From positions 186,001 through 250,000 of the forward strand of contig NZ_JAIUZR010000004.1 in the NCBI RefSeq assembly GCF_020171465.1: 64,000 nucleotides of DNA. Direction: 5' to 3'. A program made the translations under genes and the position numbers. How positions within the stretch are numbered: position 1 is the stretch's first letter; each line of letters begins with the position of its first letter. Under the pieces are notes generated by a model, which worked only from the letters and a program-made list of their open reading frames with translations, did no database searches and was not told the origin of the DNA. Below, piece by piece: positions 14,789-38,417 of the stretch. Source of the stretch: Lutimonas saemankumensis (GTDB taxonomy: Bacteria > Bacteroidota > Bacteroidia > Flavobacteriales > Flavobacteriaceae).

Positions 14789-15325
14789 ATGAAACTACAA
14801 GATCTGTATCAAAAGGCTATCAAATTTGCAGGTGAAAAACACGGTGATCAAAAGATGCCGGGAAATCAGGCCAGTTACCTGGTACATCTTTCCAATGTGG
14901 CCATGGAAGTGCTTCTGGCCAGTCAGCATGAGGAAGGATTTAATACAGAACTTGCGGTTCAGGCAGCAATATTACATGACACATTAGAGGATACTGACAC
15001 ATCTTTTGAAGAACTCAAAGAAGTTTTCGGCTTCAAAGTTGCTGATGCCGTACTTTCTTTATCAAAAAATGAAGATCTGGATAAGGAACTACAGATTCCA
15101 GACAGCCTGGCCCGTATACGCCTTCAGCCCAAAGAGATCTGGGCCGTTAAACTGGCTGACCGCATTTCAAACATGCAGGAACCACCTGAAAACTGGGATA
15201 AAAACAAGCGTATTGCCTATCAGCTTGCCGCCCGAATGATATTGATGCACTTAAAAGGTGGCAATAATTATCTCGAAAAAAGGCTTGAAGAAAAAATTCT
15301 GGCTTATGATGAGTATATCAATTGA
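14789..15325 (+). CDS. HD-domain hydrolase, MESH1/SpoT-like
   Basis: A 178-residue cytoplasmic protein built as one HD domain. YLVHLSNVAMEV supplies the first His, AAILHDTLEDTDT is the HD pair with the ED that follows in SpoT and MESH1, and VKLADRISNMQ gives the last Asp. This matches the small stand-alone HD proteins related to the (p)ppGpp hydrolase domain of SpoT. It may remove the 3'-diphosphate from ppGpp or from NADPH-like substrates (both activities are known in the family). The synthetase and TGS domains are absent. The final codons lie inside a 29-bp tandem duplication. Confidence 0.8.
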   Translation: MKLQDLYQKAIKFAGEKHGDQKMPGNQASYLVHLSNVAMEVLLASQHEEGFNTELAVQAAILHDTLEDTDTSFEELKEVFGFKVADAVLSLSKNEDLDKELQIPDSLARIRLQPKEIWAVKLADRISNMQEPPENWDKNKRIAYQLAARMILMHLKGGNNYLEKRLEEKILAYDEYIN

Positions 15326-15365
15326 AACCTCTTTAAGATGAGTATATCAACTGAAACCTCTTTAA
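15308..15365 (+). repeat. 29-bp tandem duplication at the end of the HD gene
   Basis: Bases 15308-15336 are repeated at 15337-15365 with a single difference (AAT to AAC). The unit carries the last five codons and stop of the HD gene (Asp-Glu-Tyr-Ile-Asn-stop). The lone change would be silent if the second copy were the coding one. The unit length is not a multiple of three, and the copy after the stop is not translated. Confidence 0.9.
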
Positions 15366-19897: not shown

Positions 19898-19965
19898 GTT
19901 AATCTAGTTTAACATCTATTGATAAGCTACTTCATTTTATAGAAAGCATAGGTTTCGGAACTTTG
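19898..19965 (+). promoter_or_regulatory. Palindromic operator plus promoter for the pirin genes (site 1)
   Basis: GTTAATCTAGTTTAAC at 19898-19913 is a near-perfect 16-bp palindrome, followed by AT-N3-TTGATAA. A -7-like box GAACTTTG ends at 19965. The palindrome centre is 56.5 bp before the TTTG, putting it roughly 62 bp before the expected start, where class I CRP-type activators bind. The same arrangement recurs at 21960-22027. Confidence 0.65.
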
Positions 19966-19989
19966 TCAAGAATTTCTAAAACTCAAAAA

Positions 19990-21012
19990 ATGGATGCAAA
20001 TAAAATAATTCAGATCAAGCCTTTAGGTTTTCCATGGGAAACACAGGATCCTTTTTTATTCTGTGCCTATCACAGGGATGAATATCCAAAAGGTGATGAA
20101 AGCATGGGGCTGGGCCCTGAAGATAAAACAGGTAGAAATATAGGGCAGGACTTTGTGGTCAAGGATGGATTCAGAATGTATCACGGCCGCCATATTCCTG
20201 GTTTTCCGTATCATCCGCACAGAGGCTTTGAAACGGTTACGATCAATAAAGAAGGTTTTGTGGACCATACTGATTCTCTGGGAGCGGCAGGCCGTTTTGG
20301 GAAAGGAGATGTGCAGTGGATGACAGCGGGCAAAGGGGTTCAACATTCTGAAATGTTTCCTCTGCTCAATAAAGACAGTGGCAATCCGCTTGAAATTTTT
20401 CAGGTTTGGCTAAACTTACCTAAAGCAAGTAAGTTTGTTGAACCGCATTTTAAAATGCTATGGGAAGATATGATTCCTGTAATCACACATACAGAAAACA
20501 ACAAAAAGACTGAAATAAATCTGATCGCAGGACAACTCAATGATACCCATGCTCCGGAACCTACTCCTGATTCATGGGCAGCAAATCCGGCAAACGCTGT
20601 GTCCATATTAACTGTAAAAATGGAACCTGAAGCTGTATGGACCTTGCCTGCCTCTCAAGTCCAGGGAACAAACAGAACCTTATACTTTTATAAGGGTGAT
20701 TCCCTGTCCATAGAGGGCCAGGATGTCAAAGTTGATCATTTGGTAAAATTAAAATCAGATGAAAATATCCGCCTGAAAAATGGAACGGAAGATACTTATT
20801 TATTGATTTTGGAAGGAAAACCCATCAATGAACCTGTAGCGCAGTACGGTCCGTTTGTTATGAATACACAGGCTGAGATTGAGGAGGCTTTTTCAGACTA
20901 TCGCCGTACCCAGTTTGGTGGATGGCCATGGCCCAATCAGGAACAGGTACATGACCGGGATAAAGGCCGTTTTGCCCTGCATGCAGATGGTAAAGAAGAA
21001 TTTAAATCATAG
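19990..21012 (+). CDS. Pirin family protein
   Basis: A 340-residue cytoplasmic bicupin, starting at the ATG 19990 (MDANKIIQIKPLGFPW). The first cupin carries the metal ligands: YHPHRGFETVT (two His), then KGVQHSEMF with His and Glu. This is the pattern H-x-H...H-x-E of pirins with Fe(II)-binding and quercetinase-like activity. The second cupin is degenerate. It is followed nine bases later by a second, shorter pirin gene. Its promoter carries the palindrome described at 19898. In bacteria pirins are linked to redox and stress responses; the substrate is unknown. Confidence 0.9.
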   Translation: MDANKIIQIKPLGFPWETQDPFLFCAYHRDEYPKGDESMGLGPEDKTGRNIGQDFVVKDGFRMYHGRHIPGFPYHPHRGFETVTINKEGFVDHTDSLGAAGRFGKGDVQWMTAGKGVQHSEMFPLLNKDSGNPLEIFQVWLNLPKASKFVEPHFKMLWEDMIPVITHTENNKKTEINLIAGQLNDTHAPEPTPDSWAANPANAVSILTVKMEPEAVWTLPASQVQGTNRTLYFYKGDSLSIEGQDVKVDHLVKLKSDENIRLKNGTEDTYLLILEGKPINEPVAQYGPFVMNTQAEIEEAFSDYRRTQFGGWPWPNQEQVHDRDKGRFALHADGKEEFKS

Positions 21013-21021
21013 CCTTTGATC

Positions 21022-21897
21022 ATGAATAACCAATTAAAACAAGTCAAATACTTATTGCCTGCCGTGCAAATTGATATGGATGGATTCCCTGTTAAACAGG
21101 CCTTGCCTACTCAAAAAGTGCAGCAATGGGATCCGTTTTTGTTATTGCACCATGCGAGGGTAAAATACAGTAACAGAAGATTGGCCAGGCACCAGGGGGT
21201 AGGCCCTCATCCTCACAGGGGGTTTTCACCTGTCACTTTTGTGATCGAAGGTGAGGTACATCACAGAGATAGCTGGGGGAATAATCAGATAGCAAAGGAA
21301 GGAGAGGTTCAATGGATGCATGCCGGGGCAGGTATCGTTCACAGCGAAAGGCCCTCTGAAGCACTGGTCGAAAAACAGGGACATCAGGAAATCGTGCAGT
21401 TATGGATCAATAGCCCGGCCTCAAAGAAGATGATCCCGCCCTCCTATTCCTATATTTCTAAGGAGGCGATGACCCGGTTTTCTTCTGAAGATAAAAAGAT
21501 CAGCAATAATCTGATTTCCGGAAACTATGGGGATCTAAAAGGAAAGGTAATTCCTCAATCGGAACTGTTGGTCATCTGGGGGCATGGTGAGGCCGGAGGA
21601 ACACAACAGCTTAAAGTTCCGAAAGGTTTCAGCAGTATGCTCTATCTCGTAAAGGGAACAATGACCCTGAAGAAATATGGTTTGATTGAAGAGGAACATT
21701 TGGCTGTATTTGAACACGAGGGAGACCATATAGAAATGTCATTTAAGGAAAATGGACAGTTCATTTTACTGTCTGGTGTACCTATCGATGAAAAAGTTAC
21801 CCAAAGCGGGCCTTATGTAATGAATTCCCAAACCGAAATACTGGAAGCTATGAGAGATTACCAGATGGGTAAATTCGGAATTTTAATTGAACACTAA
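21022..21897 (+). CDS. Pirin family protein (second copy)
   Basis: A 291-residue bicupin starting at the ATG 21022. The metal site is again clear: GPHPHRGFSPVTF and AGAGIVHSERP, giving His-x-His and His-x-Glu ligands. It differs strongly from the preceding pirin, so the two are old paralogs, not a recent duplication. The C-terminus GPYVMNSQTEILEAM closely parallels GPFVMNTQAEIEEAF in the first protein. Both genes form one transcript that ends at the terminator at 21922. Function is likely oxidative-stress related; this is inference. Confidence 0.9.
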   Translation: MNNQLKQVKYLLPAVQIDMDGFPVKQALPTQKVQQWDPFLLLHHARVKYSNRRLARHQGVGPHPHRGFSPVTFVIEGEVHHRDSWGNNQIAKEGEVQWMHAGAGIVHSERPSEALVEKQGHQEIVQLWINSPASKKMIPPSYSYISKEAMTRFSSEDKKISNNLISGNYGDLKGKVIPQSELLVIWGHGEAGGTQQLKVPKGFSSMLYLVKGTMTLKKYGLIEEEHLAVFEHEGDHIEMSFKENGQFILLSGVPIDEKVTQSGPYVMNSQTEILEAMRDYQMGKFGILIEH

Positions 21898-22439: not shown

Positions 22440-23018
22440 ATGAAAAACAGAGTACAAACAATCATAGCAACAGTTATAATTGCAACGATCACATTTGCAT
22501 TTACAACAATCGAAGATGGTAAAAAAGCAGTCAATACAGAAACAAGTTCAGTGACCTGGAAGGGATATAAAGTAACCGGTTCACATGTAGGAAGTATTGC
22601 CCTGAAACAAGGATCACTTGAATTTAAAGAAGGAGCTTTAATTGGTGGTGAATTTGTCATGGACATGACAACCATTGTGAATACAGATCTTGAAGGGGAA
22701 TACAAAGGAAAACTTGAGGGGCACTTGAAATCAGATGATTTCTTTGGAGTGGCGACCTACCCTACAGCGAAACTTGTATTTAACAAAGTCAAAAGCACAG
22801 GTAAAAATTCATATCAGGTAACAGGTGACCTTACTATAAAGGACAGAACCAATCCTGTCACCTTTGAAATATCAGTCTATGGGAACAAGGCTACGGCCAG
22901 TCTTAAAATTGACAGGACCCTTTATGGCGTAAAATACGGATCGGCTAGTTTCTTTGATGATCTGAAAGACAAAGCCATCTATGATGAATTTGATCTGGTT
23001 ACCGACCTTGAATTCTAA
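22440..23018 (+). CDS. YceI family periplasmic protein
   Basis: A 192-residue protein with an N-terminal export signal (MKNRVQTIIATVIIATITFAF). The rest is the YceI beta-barrel: SVTWKGYKVTGSHVG, HLKSDDFFGVATYPTAKLVF (the conserved H-L-x-S-x-D-F-F) and LTIKDRTNPVTFEISV. Family members bind polyisoprenoid lipids such as quinone precursors in a hydrophobic tunnel. The gene is last in its unit, with a strong terminator 25 bases downstream. Co-control with pirins suggests a role in quinone or redox stress. Confidence 0.92.
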   Translation: MKNRVQTIIATVIIATITFAFTTIEDGKKAVNTETSSVTWKGYKVTGSHVGSIALKQGSLEFKEGALIGGEFVMDMTTIVNTDLEGEYKGKLEGHLKSDDFFGVATYPTAKLVFNKVKSTGKNSYQVTGDLTIKDRTNPVTFEISVYGNKATASLKIDRTLYGVKYGSASFFDDLKDKAIYDEFDLVTDLEF

Positions 23019-23036
23019 TGACCCTGTTATACAATC

Positions 23037-23068
23037 AAAAAAAGACCGTAGCTTCTACGGTCTTTTTT
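23037..23068 (+). terminator. Strong rho-independent terminator after yceI
   Basis: GACCGTAG (23044-23051) and CTACGGTC (23055-23062) form an 8-bp stem with a three-base CTT loop, flanked by A7 and T6 runs. Confidence 0.93.
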
Positions 23069-23438
23069 ATTTGATAGTCCATATTAACGAACCCATTATA
23101 CATATTTAACGGGCACATCAATAAAAGATTTAAAATTTTTTCTCCATTAAGATAACCATAAATCTTCAAAATTAAATCTGATAAGCCCTATGCAAGGTCC
23201 AAAAATGATGTCTAAAATGGTCCGAAATTCGAGATTTTCATCAATAAAATCTTAAACTTTTATAAAAATTCTAAATATTTTGAAATTTTTAACATTTTTT
23301 AACTACTTGATTTTCTGTGTTTTAAATTTTTTAGCTGCCAAAAATTTGTTAAAATAGTACTATGTTAAACAAAGTACTGTAACCTTTCTGAAGTTATGCA
23401 GTCTTATAAGTATAACCAACGATTTAAAAATTAAAATT
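23069..23438. other. Non-coding stretch upstream of the small-peptide array
   Basis: Very AT-rich DNA without a convincing gene. It holds the perfect palindrome ATAGTACTAT (23354-23363) flanked by GTTAAA and GTTAAAC, then another AGTACT at 23373, all within 90 bases of the first small ORF. TTTG occurs at 23345-23348, but no clean TAnnTTTG follows at the right distance (nearest is TAACCTTT at 23380). A 12-codon frame (23396-23434) ends just before the array. The promoter of the array is expected here. Confidence 0.5.
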
Positions 23439-23513
23439 ATGAGAACTACAATATTTAAAAACAGTAAAAGAATAAGATGGTCAGAGCACAGAAATTATGC
23501 CGTTAAATCTTAA
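23439..23513 (+). CDS. 24-residue basic peptide, tandem copy 1
   Basis: An ATG-to-TAA frame of 24 codons. The peptide starts MRTTIFKNSKRIRW and ends SEHRNYAVKS. It has seven Lys/Arg and one Glu, net charge about +6, with no signal peptide or membrane segment. It differs from copies 2 and 3 by Lys for Arg at residue 7 and by silent changes at Phe6 and Ser9. The upstream sequence is A-rich (TTAAAAATTAAAATT), as for starts in this phylum, but unlike that before copies 2 and 3. I recognise no family. The conserved frame argues that it is translated. Confidence 0.65.
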   Translation: MRTTIFKNSKRIRWSEHRNYAVKS

Positions 23514-23556
23514 TTAAAAAAAAACCTAATCACAAAAAAATATAAAATCAAAAATT

Positions 23557-23631
23557 ATGAGAACTACAGTATTCAGAAACAGCAAAAGAATAAGATGGTC
23601 AGAGCACAGAAACTATGCCGTTAAATCTTAA
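23557..23631 (+). CDS. 24-residue basic peptide, tandem copy 2
   Basis: Same length and frame as copy 1, starting MRTTVFRNSKRIRW. It differs from copy 3 at only two bases: GTA for ATA (Val5 for Ile) and AAC for AAT (silent at Asn19). It is preceded by a 43-base spacer, CCTAATCACAAAAAAATATA then AAATCAAAAATT, that is almost identical before copy 3. No terminator lies between copies, so all three should share one transcript. Confidence 0.65.
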   Translation: MRTTVFRNSKRIRWSEHRNYAVKS

Positions 23632-23675
23632 TTGAAAATAAAACCTAATCACAAAAAAATATAAAATCAAAAATC

Positions 23676-23750
23676 ATGAGAACTACAATATTCAGAAACA
23701 GCAAAAGAATAAGATGGTCAGAGCACAGAAATTATGCCGTTAAATCTTAA
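23676..23750 (+). CDS. 24-residue basic peptide, tandem copy 3
   Basis: Starts MRTTIFRNSKRIRW and ends SEHRNYAVKS. It differs from copy 1 at three bases (one Lys/Arg change and two silent). Sequence similarity between units stops within a few bases of its TAA, so it is the end of the array. Two hairpins follow, one of them terminator-like at 23823. Confidence 0.65.
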   Translation: MRTTIFRNSKRIRWSEHRNYAVKS

Positions 23751-23801
23751 TTACAGCCCCAGCAAATGCTTCTAAGCAGAAACAGATTTCCACATATATC
23801 A

Positions 23802-23848
23802 CTCGGTATCCCCGAGATCAGCAACCCTAACAATCAGTAGGGTTTTCT
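23802..23848 (+). terminator. Hairpin pair ending the small-peptide array
   Basis: CTCGG/CCGAG at 23802-23816 makes a small hairpin. AACCCTA (23823-23829) then pairs with TAGGGTT (23838-23844), followed by TTTCTGG. The second is a plausible terminator with a weak T run. Confidence 0.55.
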
Positions 23849-23915
23849 GGTTTAAGCCCCTCTCACCTCTAATTTAACAGTACTACTTAATAATTACAAA
23901 GGCTTTATCAATCCA

Positions 23916-25058
23916 TTAAGTCATCAGATAATCGTAATATCTTACGGTATGATACATCGATTTCCAAAAAAATATCAGAGGAGTGCCCGGATCAGGCGCT
24001 CCTTTTTCATCCAGTGATGCAATCCACTCCCCGCTGTTGTCAATAAAATTTGATCGAATGTATATTAACTGTTCTTCAGCAAGATCCTTGTGCGTGTCAT
24101 CCGAACTGATTTTATACGCATTCATCAGCCCGAGAGCCACTTCCGCCTGAGGCCACCAGGATTTCATCTTTTCATGATTTCCCTGAGCATCGAAAATATT
24201 AAAATATCCTCCGTATAATTCATCTCTTGCCAGCTCAATAACCCTTTCCATCATTAAAAGTGCCATCGATTCAGTTCGCTTTATCAACTCTTTGTTCCCG
24301 ATTGCCTTTGCTGCCTCACAAATAACCCAACTGCATTCCGCATTATGTCCTGCCCAGTTTTCATCAGGAATTGGTTTCCAATCTTCACTTAAACGGTGTA
24401 TACAGAAATACTCTTTATCATCAATAAAATGATCCAGAATGATGTGCAAAATCTCTGTTATTTGCCGCCTGATTTGTTCATCCTTTCTGTTTTCATAAAC
24501 CTTGACCAGTGCCTCCATCGTATGAAAGTGGGTGGCGAACGATCTGGTGATGGAATCTTCTCTCTCCCAGTTATCATTCAGCCCGTCGACAAAACCCTTA
24601 AGATTCCCTGAAATTAACTTATCATTCATAAAGGAAATCTGCTCATTCACCAGCTGTATGATCGCTGCCGAGTTATTAATTTTCTCATATTCTGCAAGTC
24701 CGTAAAGAACAAATGCCTGGGCCATATTCACATTTTCCCTGTCAGATTGCCATTGCATATTGTATGATCTTGCCCAATAATATCCTCCATTCGGGTTATT
24801 AAACTCCATCAATAACTGAAAAGAGAGTTTTGCCAGGTCCCTATACTCACGTTTACCCAGCAGCTGATAAGCCTTACTGCTCCCATAAAGTATCCTGCTC
24901 AAATACATACTGCCCATTTGTGCTTTCCAATTGCAGATCCCTGATAAAGATATTTCTGGACAGATCAGGCTGCCTTCCTTATTGAGCATATTTTTACTCC
25001 AGAAATCCATATAGTTTCTGAACTCTTTTTCAATTGATGACAAAGTCTTTTTTTCCAT
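23916..25058 (-). CDS. AGE-family epimerase (cellobiose/mannobiose 2-epimerase-like)
   Basis: A 380-residue cytoplasmic protein with the (alpha/alpha)6 barrel pattern of N-acylglucosamine 2-epimerases. Catalytic His residues fit the family: His177/His179 in THFHTMEA, His238 in WAGHNAECSW and His370 in the MYHTVRYY tail; WWPQAEVALG is the substrate-side Trp motif. This spacing fits cellobiose and mannobiose 2-epimerases better than the renin-binding type. The reaction would convert a reducing-end glucose to mannose, or the reverse. It stands alone; its promoter region (25089-25121) holds an inverted repeat. Confidence 0.88.
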   Translation of the reverse strand: MEKKTLSSIEKEFRNYMDFWSKNMLNKEGSLICPEISLSGICNWKAQMGSMYLSRILYGSSKAYQLLGKREYRDLAKLSFQLLMEFNNPNGGYYWARSYNMQWQSDRENVNMAQAFVLYGLAEYEKINNSAAIIQLVNEQISFMNDKLISGNLKGFVDGLNDNWEREDSITRSFATHFHTMEALVKVYENRKDEQIRRQITEILHIILDHFIDDKEYFCIHRLSEDWKPIPDENWAGHNAECSWVICEAAKAIGNKELIKRTESMALLMMERVIELARDELYGGYFNIFDAQGNHEKMKSWWPQAEVALGLMNAYKISSDDTHKDLAEEQLIYIRSNFIDNSGEWIASLDEKGAPDPGTPLIFFWKSMYHTVRYYDYLMT

Positions 25059-37610: not shown

Positions 37611-38417
37611 TTACCAGCCCCCACTGGCTCCGCCACCGCCAAAGCCTCCGCCTCCAAAACCGCCACCGAAGCCTCCGCCTCCAAAGCCTCCGCCAGAACC
37701 TCCGCCAAATCCACCTCGGCTGCCAAATCCACCACGTCCTGCGTTGCTAAGAATGATAGCATCAAGTAAAGAAAATCCACCGGATCTTCTTCCTCTGTTT
37801 CTGCCACCCCCTCGGTTCCTTCTGGAAAGTATTATCATGATGATAATAAAAATAATGACTATTATAAATGCTGAAAATTTACCTTTGGGTTCCTCATATT
37901 GCCTTTCACCTTGATATTCACCTCTCATAATTGTTATAATGGCGTCAGTTCCCTCATCCAGTCCTTTGTAAAAATTCCCTCTTTTAAACTCTGGGGTAAT
38001 AATGTTTTCAATGATCCTTTTCGAAAGCGCATCAGTAAGTAAATGTTCAACTCCGTAACCTGTCCTGATCGTCATTTTCCGATCGGTTTTTGACACCAGC
38101 AAAACAATTCCGTTATCCTTCCCTTTTTGGCCTATACCCCATTTGTGGGCCAGTTCAGTGGCGTACAAGGCAATATCGTTCCCTTCAAGTGAATTGATGG
38201 TGATGACCACGATCTGAGTTGAAGTGGTATCACTGTAATTGATAAGTTTTCTTTCAAGGGACTTAGCTTCTGAACTACTCATCATTTGAGCCTGATCATA
38301 AACACTTGTCTGATTTTTAGGTACATCCGGTAAATAGTCCTGAGCCCAAAATATTTGGACAGTACCAAAAAAGAAAAAAATGAACAGGCTAAAATATTTA
38401 ATGACTCTGGTTTGCAT
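37611..38417 (-). CDS. TPM-domain protein with Gly-rich tail
   Basis: A 268-residue protein from the ATG at 38417, with a signal peptide (MQTRVIKYFSLFIFFFFG, cleaved near WAQ). The TPM (TLP18.3/Psb32/MOLO-1) domain covers about residues 30-165 with VYDQAQMMSS, STQIVVITI and TIRTGYGVEHLLTDA. One transmembrane helix follows (about 180-197, FSAFIIVIIFIIIMIIL). The last 55 residues are almost pure Gly with Phe and Ser (GGFGGGSGGGFGGGG), coded by GC-rich repeats at 37620-37735. TPM proteins help assemble membrane complexes or act as phosphatases. Here the usual LemA partner is not in sight. Confidence 0.85.
   Translation of the reverse strand: MQTRVIKYFSLFIFFFFGTVQIFWAQDYLPDVPKNQTSVYDQAQMMSSSEAKSLERKLINYSDTTSTQIVVITINSLEGNDIALYATELAHKWGIGQKGKDNGIVLLVSKTDRKMTIRTGYGVEHLLTDALSKRIIENIITPEFKRGNFYKGLDEGTDAIITIMRGEYQGERQYEEPKGKFSAFIIVIIFIIIMIILSRRNRGGGRNRGRRSGGFSLLDAIILSNAGRGGFGSRGGFGGGSGGGFGGGGFGGGFGGGGFGGGGASGGW

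Follow-up and report, generated by a model that had tools for sequence, protein, structure and literature searches.

The HAAS-PadR/PspC dyad has been proposed as an envelope-stress signalling device (PMC11237479). In Listeria, as given in the available text of the report, the PadR repressor LstR and the ECF sigma factor sigma-C control the sigC operon in inverse directions (PMC6624303). In Flavobacterium psychrophilum, an ECF-type motif with a CGT -10 box, SM6, emerges from mapped transcription starts (PMC9723704). The microprotein gene array described here, from Lutimonas saemankumensis, resembles the Listeria case in that a PadR protein and an ECF sigma factor would act jointly, as we infer it for these arrays (PMC6624303). 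However the Listeria target, according to the available text, is the operon of the two regulators themselves, which includes a RodA-like gene, whereas here a joint promoter would precede separate microprotein arrays. SM6 targets given in the available text of the Flavobacterium report are T9SS, Band-7, and other genes, and neither the palindrome described below nor microprotein arrays are found there (PMC9723704). The L. saemankumensis genome does have a HAAS-PadR/PspC/Toastrack operon, with a relaxed palindrome in its promoter region, but microprotein arrays are not named as targets in the available portion of the account of this system (PMC11237479). Literature searches by peptide sequence and by topic found no paper on these microproteins. 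The arrays are real and coding and their regulatory module is unusually specific; regulation by that module is likely, judging from the nucleotide sequence.

The window, i.e. the whole stretch of DNA analysed, is 64,000 nt long (G000:C4:186001-250000) and is part of a 3.58 Mb genome that is 100% complete. The array and its flanking elements are as follows:

23357..23377, + strand: operator palindrome GTACTATGT-TAA-ACAAAGTAC, a putative PadR site; exact match together with TGTAAC, 0 in 100 shuffles
23378..23383, + strand: -35 element TGTAAC of a putative ECF-sigma-type promoter; consensus match only
23400..23405, + strand: putative -10 element AGTCTT, 16 nt after TGTAAC; one base from consensus
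23439..23513, + strand: peptide gene copy 1, MRTTIFKNSKRIRWSEHRNYAVKS
23557..23631, + strand: peptide gene copy 2, MRTTVFRNSKRIRWSEHRNYAVKS
23676..23750, + strand: peptide gene copy 3, MRTTIFRNSKRIRWSEHRNYAVKS
23823..23844, + strand: terminator-like hairpin with a T-rich tail; 1 found in a consensus scan versus a mean of 0.3 in shuffles

The array is the top of six Tandem Repeats Finder rows for the window (score 584, 94% matches). A preliminary description, made from the letters alone, reported three near-identical 24-codon frames in tandem and in one direction, and the recount agrees: each frame is 75 bp, the spacing is 118 and 119, all three copies read MRTT...SEHRNYAVKS, and of the five variable bases three are silent and two conservative (I/V, K/R). 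The spacers of 43 and 44 nt show no terminator-like site in a consensus scan of 22950-23950. The peptide is basic and strongly charged, with a net charge of +6, and displays no hydrophobic membrane segment, also as described. Translation from one polycistronic mRNA had been suggested as well; promoter-like and terminator-like sites bracket the array, which is consistent with a single mRNA but does not demonstrate it. The hairpin at 23823..23844 probably ends the transcription unit. Elsewhere in the window, positions 15304-15365 (period 29) and 37632-37709 (period 12-27, GCCTCC-rich) carry short tandem repeats unrelated to the peptide array, and 19963-21897 carries two neighbouring genes that we take to be pirin-like, downstream of what is presumably a Crp-type regulator.

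Searches with the 24 aa query gave five more paralogues in the same genome; other Flavobacteriaceae yielded relatives, frequently arranged in tandem. These are termed family A, of which 141 of 167 unique members are 36–38 aa long. The family consensus is MKxxxxxTPTESRxxxxFSNFKNSKRVRWxExRNYxx, with the pattern TPTESR...FSNFKNSKRVRW.E.RNY. The window copies match the family profile, have intact frames and carry the invariant R, W, and R. They align to model positions 19–36 only, with about 13 residues near the N-terminus missing, and are thus a shortened form of family A. This relationship, and the more telling feature, a conserved operator-promoter upstream that a PadR/PspC operon partly shares, had been overlooked in the preliminary description, whose account is otherwise supported in part. 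Members of 24 or 25 aa among the 167 are found in the genus Lutimonas and in three metagenome-assembled records (L038-L040).

A profile built from 59 rows was run on 299 sampled Flavobacteriaceae genomes, and up to 25 candidates were scored in each. At E <= 0.001, 43 of these genomes carry family A, mostly in tandem, with up to 11 matches in a single genome; no internal stops are present among the matches listed. Carriers named among 50 loci include Robiginitalea, Maribacter, Eudoraea, Muriicola, Pricia, Lutibacter, Lutimonas, Saonia, and Flagellimonas. The repeat is therefore not confined to its own genome; the preliminary description had named its absence elsewhere as an outcome that would count against its reading. 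In a sample of the whole phylum 6 of 296 genomes match, and the three strong matches (the L. saemankumensis genome included) are all Flavobacteriaceae. The three weak ones, outside the family (E 0.0056-0.01, two with an internal stop), were taken as chance.

Family A is coding and under purifying selection. The analysis used hits that score 28 bits or more and start with ATG (241 hits, giving 167 unique coding sequences); some loci are the same genome reached via two collections, and related genomes do not count as independent. For 37 aa members with at least 75% identity, pS exceeds pN in 290 of 290 pairs (pooled, 0.554 vs 0.089), and the 15 short members give a pooled pS of 0.324 and pN of 0.077. 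Because homologues elsewhere keep the frame and pS exceeds pN, the array does not arise by chance. The other adverse outcome that the preliminary description had named, a broken frame with the RNA shape kept, is not seen either: the frame is kept in other genomes, and the fold of the window-array RNA is no more stable than those of shuffles (z = +0.86). A structured non-coding RNA was rejected, as Rfam gives no match at gathering score for 22900-24100, where sub-threshold matches fall outside the array, and as the fold is at shuffle level.

Compared for signs of concerted evolution, copies within an array are not more alike than copies between genomes in two of three cases: within-array identities are 0.956 and 0.947 for G000 and G025 versus 0.951 between them, and only in G253 is identity within the array (0.971) above that between genomes (0.863-0.890). 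Certain array-end copies in other genomes look decayed. In G253 a further pair of short copies, diverged and without the promoter, lies about 5 kb from the main array (L203; G253:C12:150254-150432).

The preliminary description knew of no named family for the peptide, and none is found here: five sample family-A members display no match above cut-off in Pfam, NCBIfam, and PHROG (best E 0.047), PADLOC has no model for two sample members, and four sample peptides likewise gave no family above cut-off. No family-A relative is found in collections of viral contigs, plasmids, and phages, and a mobile or phage origin was rejected on this ground. Predicted structures are of low confidence, with a mean pLDDT of 60 for family A and 63 for the 44 aa family D described below, and the models are therefore too poor for a fold search. 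Among array neighbours (open reading frames of at least 80 aa, in clusters without annotation) the largest cluster is present in 15 of 51 loci; function from neighbours was rejected since the clusters are restricted to part of the loci.

Upstream of the arrays is an operator-promoter of the general form palindrome GTACTATGT-N3-ACATAGTAC abutting TGTAAC-N16-CGTC. The window array carries TAGTACTATGTTAAACAAAGTACTGTAAC-N16-AGTCTT, i.e. AGTC and not CGTC, the commonest -10 form elsewhere being CGTCTA. Read from its sequence, the window array has a putative promoter of the ECF-regulon kind, with TGTAAC and a CGTC-type element at fixed spacing, in an AGTC variant. The palindrome joined to TGTAAC occurs at two sites in the 3.58 Mb genome, and both are at peptide arrays (the window array and a second array of two 37 aa paralogues); a reversed-pattern control gives 0. 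The remaining three paralogues show no operator.

With upstream regions that share their last 50 nt merged (103 groups giving 75), and identical coding sequences kept separate for the division into groups and single genes, 58 of 75 distinct family-A upstream regions show the ECF-type promoter and 47 of 75 the operator. For groups of at least two copies the numbers are 52/57 and 45/57, and for single genes 6/18 and 2/18. The promoter expression is of the TGTAAC-N16-18-CGTC type, widened to include the window's own AGTC, and its background over all loci is 0.024 matches per 330 nt. Since 17 of 75 upstream regions are without the promoter, and single genes have it in only 6 of 18 cases, some members are controlled otherwise. 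Twenty further family-A places, chosen from the profile-search places and many of them in genomes with another array already included, were fetched after the expressions had been fixed; here the promoter is found in 11/20 and the operator in 10/20, with L190 and L191 in addition showing an operator with one altered base in TGTAAC. The operator pattern is absent from 11 of the 43 family-A genomes.

An alignment of 144 unique segments gives the consensus gTACttTgTtaTaCATAGTACTGTAAC, which arises partly by construction because the segments were chosen by containing AGTACTGTAAC; CGTC follows exactly 16 nt later in 114 of 144. GTTAA direct repeats with a 9–11 bp period stand before 80 of 144 array operators and can also be seen at the eight padR operons; the window array displays one clear GTTAA only. 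These repeats could be the site of a second regulator. The array is likely regulated by the operator-promoter.

The operator-promoter extends beyond family A. With up to two mismatches, 118 sites are found in 103 of 299 Flavobacteriaceae genomes, and the reversed control gives 0. Operator and family A occur together in 32 genomes, family A alone in 11 and the operator alone in 71. Family A starts within 400 bp of the operator at all 39 sites checked by coordinates. A set of 81 sites was fetched, consisting of the 79 other sites and two of those 39, and 77 of these display downstream, within 650 nt, an open reading frame of 20–65 aa whose C-terminal end carries W-x3-[RKNS]-x-[YFH]. Random starts at other fetched loci give this in 34/2000 trials with family-A-like reading frames disregarded and in 207/2000 with them included. 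As two sites are common to both sets, motif-bearing microproteins are present at 116 of 118 operator sites. GTC is found 16–18 nt after TGTAAC in 78 of the 81, and at least two motif-bearing reading frames are found in 54 of 76 such loci. The four misses consist of two family-A cases at contig ends and two others, L219 and L263. L219 shows the operator followed by an array of four 29 aa copies ending YFKRRIA, and at L263 (G221:C191), one of the 118 sites, the operator precedes a larger secreted-looking acidic protein (at most 162 codons).

Three further families participate. Family C consists of 28 aa proteins of the MRTLNNNQLTGTLNGTKSNQWNTKRRYR type (107 unique proteins), with pS greater than pN in 641 of 642 pairs. 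Family D, mostly 44 aa, has the C-terminal sequence IWKGTKRYAH and 30 unique proteins. Family B is small, shows a GFGW motif and stands first in some family-A operons (16 reading frames listed, one of them short and overlapping); its profile has matches in 18 of 299 genomes, of which the four weakest have E values between 1e-5 and 1e-4, and one of those four contains stops. Families A and C share a core, approximately [S/T]-K-x3-W-x3-R-x-[Y/F], of which a slightly wider form is found in 152 of 160 A and 91 of 107 C sequences. The mean charge is +6.1 for A, +5.7 for C, and +5.9 for D. Sample B, C, and D members show no family above cut-off in Pfam and NCBIfam. The window array belongs to this class, with the palindrome-TGTAAC module followed by basic reading frames ending W-x3-R-x-[YF].

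The relaxed palindrome, searched in eight genomes with up to two mismatches, gives 2–3 sites per genome. In all eight, one site is situated upstream of a DUF4870-like gene, a TATATTTG box lies between the two, and relatives of the L. saemankumensis PadR and PspC follow downstream in 8/8 each, the PspC of L150 being truncated by the end of the stretch. In L. saemankumensis itself the operon displays the Pfam domains DUF4870, PadR, PspC with LiaI-LiaF-TM, Toast-rack, a marginal HAAS, and DUF2807. At up to two mismatches the padR operon carries the same operator type as the arrays, the arrangement of a putatively autoregulated PadR. The presence of the TATATTTG box indicates a promoter of the housekeeping type, which differs from Listeria. 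PadR is the likely binder of the palindrome because it is the sole transcription factor discerned within that operon, and it would probably bind the array palindrome too. Published PadR sites have the form ATGT-N8-10-ACAT (PMC3506622), and the operator here, which is ATGT-N3-ACAT-like, departs from that spacing. One further relaxed palindrome is found in G191 (C2:1138863). Beside the L. saemankumensis PadR-PspC operon (L152 8280-9444; G000:C3) are, in convergent orientation, what we take to be a LytTR-type response-regulator gene and a histidine-kinase fragment.

An ECF sigma gene of the same genome, with sigma-70 regions 2 and 4, is preceded by TGTAAC-N18-GTCTTAT, and its product is one candidate reader of the array promoter. 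The generic ECF pattern is unselective: 9 sites versus 5 in the control for L. saemankumensis, 8 vs 7 for G025, and 14 vs 2 for G253. Within the genus, ECF-type promoters are also found before genes, common to 2–3 congeners, that are presumably TolC-like, MacB-like, ABC, and serine-hydrolase-like. In three congeners (L180, L181, L158) a conserved 53 aa protein with one hydrophobic stretch begins 8–9 nt past an ECF-type promoter match, and its mRNA is perhaps near-leaderless.

On balance the array appears to be one unit of dosage-amplified, cytosolic, cationic microproteins, induced by envelope stress through an ECF sigma factor and PadR release and acting via the C-terminal segment on an anionic partner; this reading is given somewhat better than even confidence. 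The array would be transcribed as one unit. An ECF-type sigma factor, perhaps the candidate above, would be needed for the TGTAAC/CGTC promoter, and a PadR-type repressor would have to leave the palindrome that touches the -35 box. That repressor would probably be the PadR of the HAAS/PspC/Toastrack operon, whose own promoter has the same kind of palindrome. The arrangement would form an AND gate, in which the coincidence of two envelope signals induces the arrays under stress; a need for both the sigma factor and PadR release is the most economical reading, and the like has been proposed for sigC/LstR in the available Listeria text (PMC6624303). The dose would be set by copy number. The action of the product would reside in the conserved segment, approximately [S/T]-K-x3-W-x3-R-x-[Y/F], which probably folds only upon binding an anionic partner, i.e. 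inner-leaflet lipid, RNA or a stress-complex protein; the partner is the least certain step. The PadR-PspC envelope-stress pathway, together with an ECF sigma factor, probably has these arrays among its outputs.

A different action, binding to RNA or ribosomes and thereby tuning translation in stress, is possible though doubtful. The high mean charge of families A, C, and D, the conserved Trp and basic residues, and the lack of a confident fold for the peptide alone are in keeping with it, and the microproteins, arginine-rich with one invariant Trp, are in this respect like phage N peptides. However, in a PDB profile search family A matches no solved ribosomal protein, the best matches being receptor chains (E 0.1-0.16) that were judged to be chance.

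It is unlikely that the products are self-made antimicrobial or signalling peptides exported via MacA/MacB-type pumps. In L. saemankumensis an HlyD-type gene follows a family-A gene at a distance of 18 nt (L007 1444-3054), members in two Lutibacter loci (L042, L081) are found 133 and 140 nt before similar-looking pump genes, and some of the ECF-type promoters mentioned above stand before presumed TolC-like and ABC-like genes, but a leader segment is not apparent and no neighbour cluster exceeds the 15 of 51 loci. As to bacteriocin or RiPP features, no neighbour recurs among the unannotated clusters, and a pump-like gene is near three loci.

Leader or arrest peptides, for which the act of translation regulates downstream genes, seem very improbable: short reading frames do occur in series, some right before a larger gene (L007, L042, L081), but the downstream gene is not constant, the window array has a terminator-like site after it, its RNA shows no structure beyond that of shuffles, and selection is on the amino acids. 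Equally remote is a type I toxin-like protein kept in tandem: the genes are short, tandem and apparently tightly controlled, but the products are strongly charged without a hydrophobic transmembrane segment, and viral, phage, and plasmid collections hold no relative.

Taking the envelope-stress reading across the family, these microproteins look like an undescribed class, as sample members are outside the family libraries and the literature searched does not mention them. A conserved and repeatedly amplified class of small proteins may have escaped notice because the genes are short and the sample members lie outside the family libraries tested. It is judged fairly probable that this is a Flavobacteriaceae-wide class of stress effectors: N-terminally unlike families with a common C-terminal W-x3-R-x-[Y/F], often in tandem, and mostly under one private operator-promoter that would place them jointly under an ECF sigma factor and the HAAS-PadR-PspC-Toastrack pathway, as the missing output of that pathway. 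To our knowledge, little is known of the outputs of HAAS-PadR-PspC systems. If the arrays are such an output, a short, sequence-defined operator would give a directly testable regulon in about one third of the sampled Flavobacteriaceae genomes (103/299).
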